A stretch of DNA of 33,344 nucleotides from Parcubacteria group bacterium GW2011_GWF1_45_5 (GTDB lineage: Bacteria > Patescibacteriota > Minisyncoccia > UBA6257 > Brennerbacteraceae). The notes beneath the pieces are model-generated. The model did not search any database. It was given only the letters and a program-made list of their open reading frames with translations, and was not told the origin of the DNA. The DNA lies in the NCBI GenBank assembly GCA_001001795.1, contig LCLB01000002.1:1-33344 (forward strand), given 5' to 3'. Shown piece by piece: positions 11,522 to 12,528 of the stretch. A program made the translations under genes and the position numbers. The stretch's first letter is position 1; each line of letters starts with the position of its first letter.

Positions 11522-11565
11522 TGCGCGCTGAGGGGATTGAACCCCCGGCCTACTCGGTGCACCCT
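11522..11565 (-). tRNA. 3' half of an interrupted tRNA (Ala(TGC)-like anticodon context; identity uncertain)
   Basis: Minus: GGTGCAC-CGAGT-AGGCC-GGGGG-TTCAATC-CCCTC-AGCGCGC-A. T-arm and acceptor 3' strand; AGCGCGC pairs with GCGCGCT of the half near 11746. Confidence 0.75.
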
Positions 11566-11581
11566 GTTAAATTTTTAACAG

Positions 11582-11653
11582 TGGGCGTTGTAGGGATTGA
11601 ACCTACGACCTTCTCGGTGTAAACGAGACGCTCTGCCACTGAGCTAAACGCCC
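11582..11653 (-). tRNA. tRNA-Val (anticodon TAC), no encoded CCA
   Basis: GGGCGTT TA GCTC AGTGGCA GAGC G TCTCG TTTACAC CGAGA AGGTC GTAGG TTCAATC CCTAC AACGCCC A; full cloverleaf. Confidence 0.96.
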
Positions 11654-11695
11654 TTATAAATATGAAGGGGTGTAAACCTGTTTGCTGGTAGGTGG

Positions 11696-11746
11696 ACGAG
11701 TCGACCTGCCTGCCGGTAGGCAAGTCTGCCACTGAGCTAAGCGCGC
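11696..11746 (-). tRNA. 5' half of an interrupted tRNA with a palindromic insert in the D-arm
   Basis: Minus: GCGCGCT TA GCTC AGTGGCA GA-CTTGCCTACCGGCAGGCAGGTCG-ACTCG; acceptor and ACTCG anticodon strand complement the 3' half at 11522-11565. Confidence 0.72.
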
Positions 11747-11828: not shown

Positions 11829-11861
11829 GCCCCGTTAGAAGCCTTAAGCTTCTAACGGGGC
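11829..11861. repeat. 14-bp-arm hairpin gccccgttagaagc-cttaa-gcttctaacggggc
   Basis: Perfect inverted repeat immediately upstream of the -35 box of the following gene; its TTAGAAGC/GCTTCTAA core recurs at 25445-25473. Confidence 0.85.
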
Positions 11862-12300: not shown

Positions 12301-12321
12301 TATACTGTTGATTGTAGTAAT

Positions 12322-12368
12322 GGGCAGGTGGTGCCTGCCTGAGGTAGGCAGGAAATGGCAGACCAGTC
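12322..12368 (+). tRNA. 5' half of an interrupted tRNA-Leu-like gene with a palindromic insert in the D-arm
   Basis: GGGCAGG TG GTG-CCTGCCTGAGGTAGGCAG-GAAATGGCAGAC.. ending near the anticodon-stem strand GTCCC; parallels GCTGGGG TG GTGGAATTGGCAGAC of the adjacent tRNA-Leu. Confidence 0.7.
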
Positions 12369-12379
12369 CCGTATAAAGT

Positions 12380-12461
12380 GCTGGGGTGGTGGAATTGGCA
12401 GACACACTAGCTTTAGGAGCTAGCACCGTAAGGTTTGCGGGTTCAACTCCCGCCCCCAGCA
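12380..12461 (+). tRNA. tRNA-Leu (anticodon TAG), no encoded CCA
   Basis: GCTGGGG...CTAGC TTTAGGA GCTAG, long variable arm, GCGGG TTCAACT CCCGC, CCCCAGC A. Confidence 0.95.
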
Positions 12462-12469
12462 CTTTATGT

Positions 12470-12512
12470 GGGATGCCGCAAGGCATGGGGGTTCAAGTCT
12501 CCCCTTGCCCAC
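12470..12512 (+). tRNA. 3' half of the interrupted tRNA-Leu-like gene
   Basis: GGGAT (anticodon strand) GCCGCAAGGC (class II variable arm) then T-arm GGGGGTTCAAGTCTCCC and CTTGCCC A; pairs with GGGCAGG and GTCCC of the 5' half. Confidence 0.7.
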
Positions 12513-12528
12513 AATAAAGCAAAAAATT

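Follow-up and report, generated by a model that had tools for sequence, protein, structure and literature searches.

Why should a complete leucine tRNA gene lie inside another leucine tRNA gene, and which of the two does the cell use? The window, that is, the whole stretch of DNA analysed here, is a 33,344-base contig from a genome of 657 kb that is 96.6% complete and belongs to the Patescibacteria, very small bacteria without cultured members here. The sequence-only reading had described a complete tRNA-Leu(TAG) nested in a disrupted tRNA-Leu, and this was borne out by the sequence, ARAGORN and Rfam, with both outer halves where they had been placed. The locus is organized as follows.

12322..12333, plus strand: acceptor 5' strand (GGGCAGG) and start of the D arm of the outer tRNA-Leu; 7/7 pairing with 12504-12510
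12334..12352, plus strand: palindrome CCTGCCTGAGGTAGGCAGG within the outer D arm; the same palindrome class occurs in D arms of other outer tRNAs
12353..12366, plus strand: remainder of the outer D arm and stump ahead of the anticodon arm, from by-eye alignment with the intact Leu(TAG) genes L055 and L070
12367..12379, plus strand: left arm of the nested unit, TCCCGTATAAAGT; pairs with 12462-12473
12380..12461, plus strand: inner tRNA-Leu(UAG), presumably the working gene; ARAGORN, Rfam 56 bits; the sole Leu(TAG) found in the genome
12462..12473, plus strand: right arm of the nested unit, CTTTATGTGGGA; pairs with the left arm
12474..12511, plus strand: 3' half of the outer tRNA-Leu, with variable arm, T arm, CTTGCCC and A73; from the sequence read and nest parsing

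The outer acceptor stem was correctly recognized: GGGCAGG (12322-12328) and CTTGCCC (12504-12510) form seven of seven pairs, one of them G-U. The outer 5' half reads GGGCAGG...GGCAGAC (12322-12363), its D arm split by CCTGCCTGAGGTAGGCAGG, and the 3' half carries a T arm and the long variable arm of the Leu type. When the halves are joined, their nearest matches are Leu(TAG) and Leu(CAA) tRNAs, with Leu(TAG) genes from other families the nearest. D-arm palindromes of the same class were found in the outer tRNAs of L084, L100, L103, L194 and L228.

The inner tRNA, complete at 12380-12461 (or 12462), is preceded by TCCCGTATAAAGT and followed by ACTTTATGTGGGA, the arms of the nested unit, at whose foot lie GTCCC and GGGAT. 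These last two had been taken for the outer anticodon stem, wrongly, as TCCCG...CGGGA forms the arm base of inner units in other nests, of other isotypes; the outer anticodon arm itself is missing. The reported 14-bp helix, ATAAAGTGCTGGGG/CCCCAGCACTTTAT, does flank the inner tRNA, and the predicted fold of 12318-12515 lengthens it into a long helix that carries the inner tRNA between the outer halves (z = -5.2; none of 200 shuffled sequences was as stable). The left arm resembles TCCCGTTCAAAGT in L100, which encloses the same type of tRNA, and TCCCGTATAAAGC in L101, where arms TCCCGTATAAAGC/CTTTATACGGGA, nearly the same as those of the window Leu nest, surround a tRNA-Ser. The insert is about 107 bases long and consists of the tRNA and its arms only, with no integrase gene inside it. 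Rfam cmscan of the window returned only tRNAs and no RF00028, and detected the positive control from the same genome (L043); a group I intron reading of the insert was rejected, since no catalytic core was found by cmscan.

A second nested locus nearby, also claimed from the sequence, was confirmed as a tRNA-Val(TAC) nest on the minus strand at 11522-11746.

11522..11559, minus strand: 3' half of the outer tRNA-Val
11582..11653, minus strand: inner tRNA-Val(UAC), the sole Val(TAC) found in the genome
11696..11746, minus strand: 5' half of the outer tRNA-Val, with D-arm palindrome CCTGCCTGCCGGTAGGC at about 11705-11722

An intact Val(TAC) gene matching the outer Val halves is present in L063. 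Between the two nests, at 11830-11860, the window also holds a free palindrome, CCCCGTTAGAAGCCTTAAGCTTCTAACGGGG, akin to the nest arms.

Which genes are needed can be judged from the tRNA set of the genome. Counting the Leu isoacceptors, as had been proposed, we found every Leu acceptor without recourse to the outer gene: TAG (inner copy only), GAG (two), TAA, CAA and CAG. The Val acceptors are TAC (again the inner copy only), GAC and CAC. Because TAG and TAC occur only as inner copies and the other acceptors are present elsewhere, the outer Leu and Val genes are dispensable and the inner ones needed. From its sequence, the inner tRNA-Leu(UAG) is presumably the working gene.

The proposal that such nesting recurs, with a survey of related genomes as its check, proved right: nests number about 100 in dozens of related genomes. 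The survey pattern called for two T arms nearer to each other than two whole tRNAs permit (GTTCRANYC N35-65 GTTCRANYCC), with the reversed pattern as control. It matched in 102 of the 244 genomes of the order, some matches being ordinary adjacent tRNAs, and the control gave approximately zero in almost all of them. A tighter pattern matched 78 of 380 genomes in a sample of the phylum, partly through chance and tandem hits. From loci fetched after the survey we parsed 105 nests, the sequence examined around them consisting of stretches at tRNA genes. By nearest neighbor, inner and outer tRNA serve the same amino acid in 87 of the 105 (permutation mean 9.6, maximum 22 in 2000 permutations); the remaining nests mostly have degenerate outer genes or poorly represented isotypes. 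Fifteen amino acids are represented, Ala, Val, Ile and Gly being the commonest, and the outer 5' half is lost, weak or unrecognizable in 30 nests. Matches inspected outside Patescibacteria in the genome_contigs scan were mostly coding DNA or ordinary tRNAs. Viral carriage was ruled against: the eight matches in viral contigs proved to be coding DNA or tRNAs that were partial or merely side by side, without a clear nest among them, and a scan with a 14-base motif gave unspecific hits.

These data are probably best explained by tRNA cassettes with hairpin arms that insert into the loops of tRNA genes of the same isotype and replace them, the outer halves being remnants. The inserted unit would be a hairpin with a tRNA at its tip, the two arms being inverted copies of one another, and it would enter hairpin loops of tRNA genes, such as the anticodon loop and the D loop. 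Insertion would destroy the target tRNA, and the surviving insertions would be those bringing a tRNA for the same amino acid; the isotype match may thus arise because an insertion in a single-copy tRNA gene survives only if the same tRNA is brought along. The outer tRNA-Leu of the window would then be the wreck of a gene superseded by the inner tRNA-Leu(UAG). Since the window unit is too short to have its own promoter, the inner tRNA is probably cotranscribed from the promoter of the old gene. Its release would probably involve an RNase III cut in the arm helix, RNase P together with 3' processing, or both; the genome encodes both RNase III and the RNA of RNase P, which makes release from the arm helix feasible. 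The replacement tRNA may be targeted in turn, giving rise to Russian-doll nests while the outer halves decay. Movement as DNA, loop targeting, cotranscription and the release route are steps that we infer. No mobilizing enzyme was found, the Y1 transposase (PF01797) having been examined: this genome lacks it, its enrichment in nest genomes across the order is weak and not significant (odds ratio 1.8, p = 0.08), and Y1/REP transposases do not seem to account for the nests.

Serial replacement is visible in other loci. In L100, from another family of the same order, an outer Leu half has the D-arm palindrome class, the joint and the arms of the window nest; there, the GCTGGGG...CCCCAGCA tRNA, a homologue of the working inner gene of the window, is itself broken by a palindrome and encloses a newer Leu(TAG), GCCCGGG. 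Multiple nests were found in L100, L194 and L248, and triple nests occur. In the genome of the window, two Thr-like 3' halves stand one after the other downstream of a Thr(TGT) on contig 3, and on contig 4 a Leu(GAG) is preceded by its own dead 5' half with a CCCCG palindrome. In G001, a genome of the same family, the order of GyrA, a small ORF, an MBL-fold gene, Val(TAC), a small pilin-like membrane protein and Leu(TAG) is conserved, with Val(TAC) and Leu(TAG) both un-nested and with the GCTGGGG acceptor of the window inner gene in its Leu(TAG). Either the window nest is younger than the split between the two genomes or the outer halves were lost in G001; similarity to an outer 5' half remnant upstream of the G001 ortholog was not significant (p = 0.13).

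The arms are a shared feature of nests with different cargoes. The left arm of a nest is complementary to the right arm (median duplex score 10.3 vs. 6.3 in shuffled sequences), and the arm ends recur as TTCA-CCCCG...CGGGG-CAAG across isotypes and lineages, with the reverse orientation, CTTG-CCCCG...CGGGG-TGAA, in L136, L351 and L352. Arms TTCACCCCG...CGGGGCAAG carry Met, Val, Leu, Glu and Arg tRNAs, in some cases in Uhrbacteria and Moranbacteria. Arms TTCACCCCGCACCAAAA/TTTTGGTGCGGGGCAAG surround a Val tRNA in a Moranbacteria genome and a Met tRNA in one labeled Omnitrophota, and a close form surrounds Glu in L117. The Met nest with these arms (L193) lies on the contig labeled Omnitrophota, which reflects either transfer or a misbinned contig. 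A tRNA lies within most long-spaced arm pairs, pointing either way with respect to the arm ends, and pairs free of cargo are few. Palindromes with the exact ends TTCACCCCG..CGGGGCA were found without cargo in only 6 of 243 genomes, and this exact form free of a tRNA is rare. Insertion is mostly in the anticodon loop, a site that the search pattern favors; the nest of L352 lies in the D loop, and in L082, L100, L115 and L118, read by eye, the insert falls between the D and anticodon arms. Insertion points differ by isotype.

The main rival on the origin of the nests is that local copying errors, by template switching or tandem duplication near palindromes, put a tRNA into its own gene with nothing mobile involved. 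The inner tRNA is nearly identical to the outer one in about ten nests, L104, L142, L143 and L158 among them, and the upstream flank of the outer gene recurs in the inner left arm of L104; these cases fit local copying instead of arrival from elsewhere. However, inner–outer identity is typically only about 70% over 33 nt, and identical arm sequences occur with different cargo tRNAs in distant lineages, so that as an account of the nests at large local copying seems unlikely. The Gly(TCC) nests of the sister species L142 and L143 show a further peculiarity: inner and outer genes share species-specific differences, as if interconverted, and there is one double change within the arms.

A different view is that the nested unit is a true intron, with the outer tRNA spliced and both tRNAs functional. 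In several isotypes the outer halves do abut exactly within the anticodon, and joining them would yield a normal loop (Thr TTTG|TAA in L119, Glu TTC|TCA in L178). An acceptor stem with 7/7 pairing is kept by 64 of the 105 outer genes, in keeping with recent insertion and equally with some constraint. Ser, Arg, Val and Gly nests share a hairpin module (TTCCC-hairpin-GCAATCCCG) upstream of the inner tRNA, with double (compensatory) changes at 8 of 13 predicted pairs among only nine sequences. On the other hand, under a strict rule the inner anticodon can be rebuilt in only 19 of the 75 two-half nests; for neither the Leu nor the Val nest of the window does any cut restore an anticodon loop with the inner anticodon. 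Where the outer anticodon is readable it often equals the inner one, so that the outer tRNA would be redundant. Many outer 5' halves are lost or unrecognizable, the window insert has neither a group I nor a group II core, and the ligase candidate RtcB (PF01139) was found neither in this genome, at its 96.6% completeness, nor in 46 of the 61 genomes searched; RtcB-dependent splicing is not supported. The joinable interrupted tRNA with a structured intron that the sequence-only reading had suggested is not supported. Of the observations it had itself named as adverse, part holds: no outer anticodon can be rebuilt in this nest, and all Leu acceptors are present without the outer gene. Since most outer genes cannot be rebuilt, many are without one half and RtcB is mostly absent, splicing as a general function is unlikely, and we regard the intron explanation as rather improbable. 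An assembly or binning artefact or a chance resemblance is the least credible explanation and already contradicted by the survey: although the genomes are mostly draft or metagenome-assembled, nests occur in many independent ones, including few-contig genomes such as G104, their arms are conserved, and chance is excluded by the survey pattern against its reversed control and by an isotype match far over permutation.

Replacement by hairpin-borne tRNAs has partial parallels among known systems. Integrative elements that use tRNA attachment sites carry an integrase and re-create the 3' end of the tRNA they target. As in the nests, the element supplies what its insertion destroys, but it rebuilds part of the target, whereas the nested insert encodes no protein and puts a second, complete gene in place of the target. 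Among palindromic repeats, Rickettsia palindromic elements and REP/BIME sequences are short and mobile, and in some cases they enter genes. The nested units are likewise short palindromes lying within genes, mobility being a property of the known systems; we know of no Rickettsia palindromic element or REP/BIME with tRNA cargo or nested in tRNA genes of the same isotype. Group I introns in bacterial tRNA genes similarly interrupt the anticodon loop, but have a self-splicing catalytic core, which the window insert lacks. The nearest reports are those of moving archaeal tRNA introns and of rRNA introns in CPR bacteria (PMC10714607). The archaeal introns, described in Thermoproteales as moving between tRNA genes (Fujishima 2010, cited in PMC10714607), likewise lodge in tRNA genes and spread from one to another. 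They are spliced and carry no tRNA, whereas the insert of a nest holds a complete replacement tRNA and the outer gene can usually no longer be repaired. We found no description of such nested tRNA genes in a search confined to open-access papers, and novelty is provisional.

It is an evenly balanced question whether Patescibacteria in general have protein-free mobile elements, made up of a hairpin and one tRNA gene, that insert in tRNA loops and replace the tRNA they destroy, the tRNA set of the phylum being renewed by serial nesting. If true, an essential RNA gene would be exchanged in place for another copy, the old gene would persist around the new one as a fossil, and nests would be a natural record of tRNA turnover. 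This would account for unusual and overlooked tRNAs in Patescibacteria and raise the question of what enzyme carries tRNAs on hairpins into the loops of tRNAs.

Some related structures were observed outside nests. In G076 (contig 9, L344), a cluster of CCCCGTTAGA palindromes lies outside tRNA genes, one of them in the center of another. In the genome of the window, the sole tRNA-Asp found (contig 5, 12280-12366, L035) has a D-arm palindrome, CCTGCCTACCGGCAGGCAGG, flanked by the 6-base repeat TAGCCC; either the palindrome is tolerated or the real gene lies in a gap. A tRNA-Thr(CGT)-like sequence (contig 6, 5387-5483, L041) has an anticodon-loop hairpin, TGTCCCGGAGGGACA, without a nested tRNA. 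Finally, the only tRNA-Asn found in this genome is an Asn-like gene (contig 31, 8889-9162, L043 490-764) with a compact group I intron in its anticodon loop (Rfam 65 bits).
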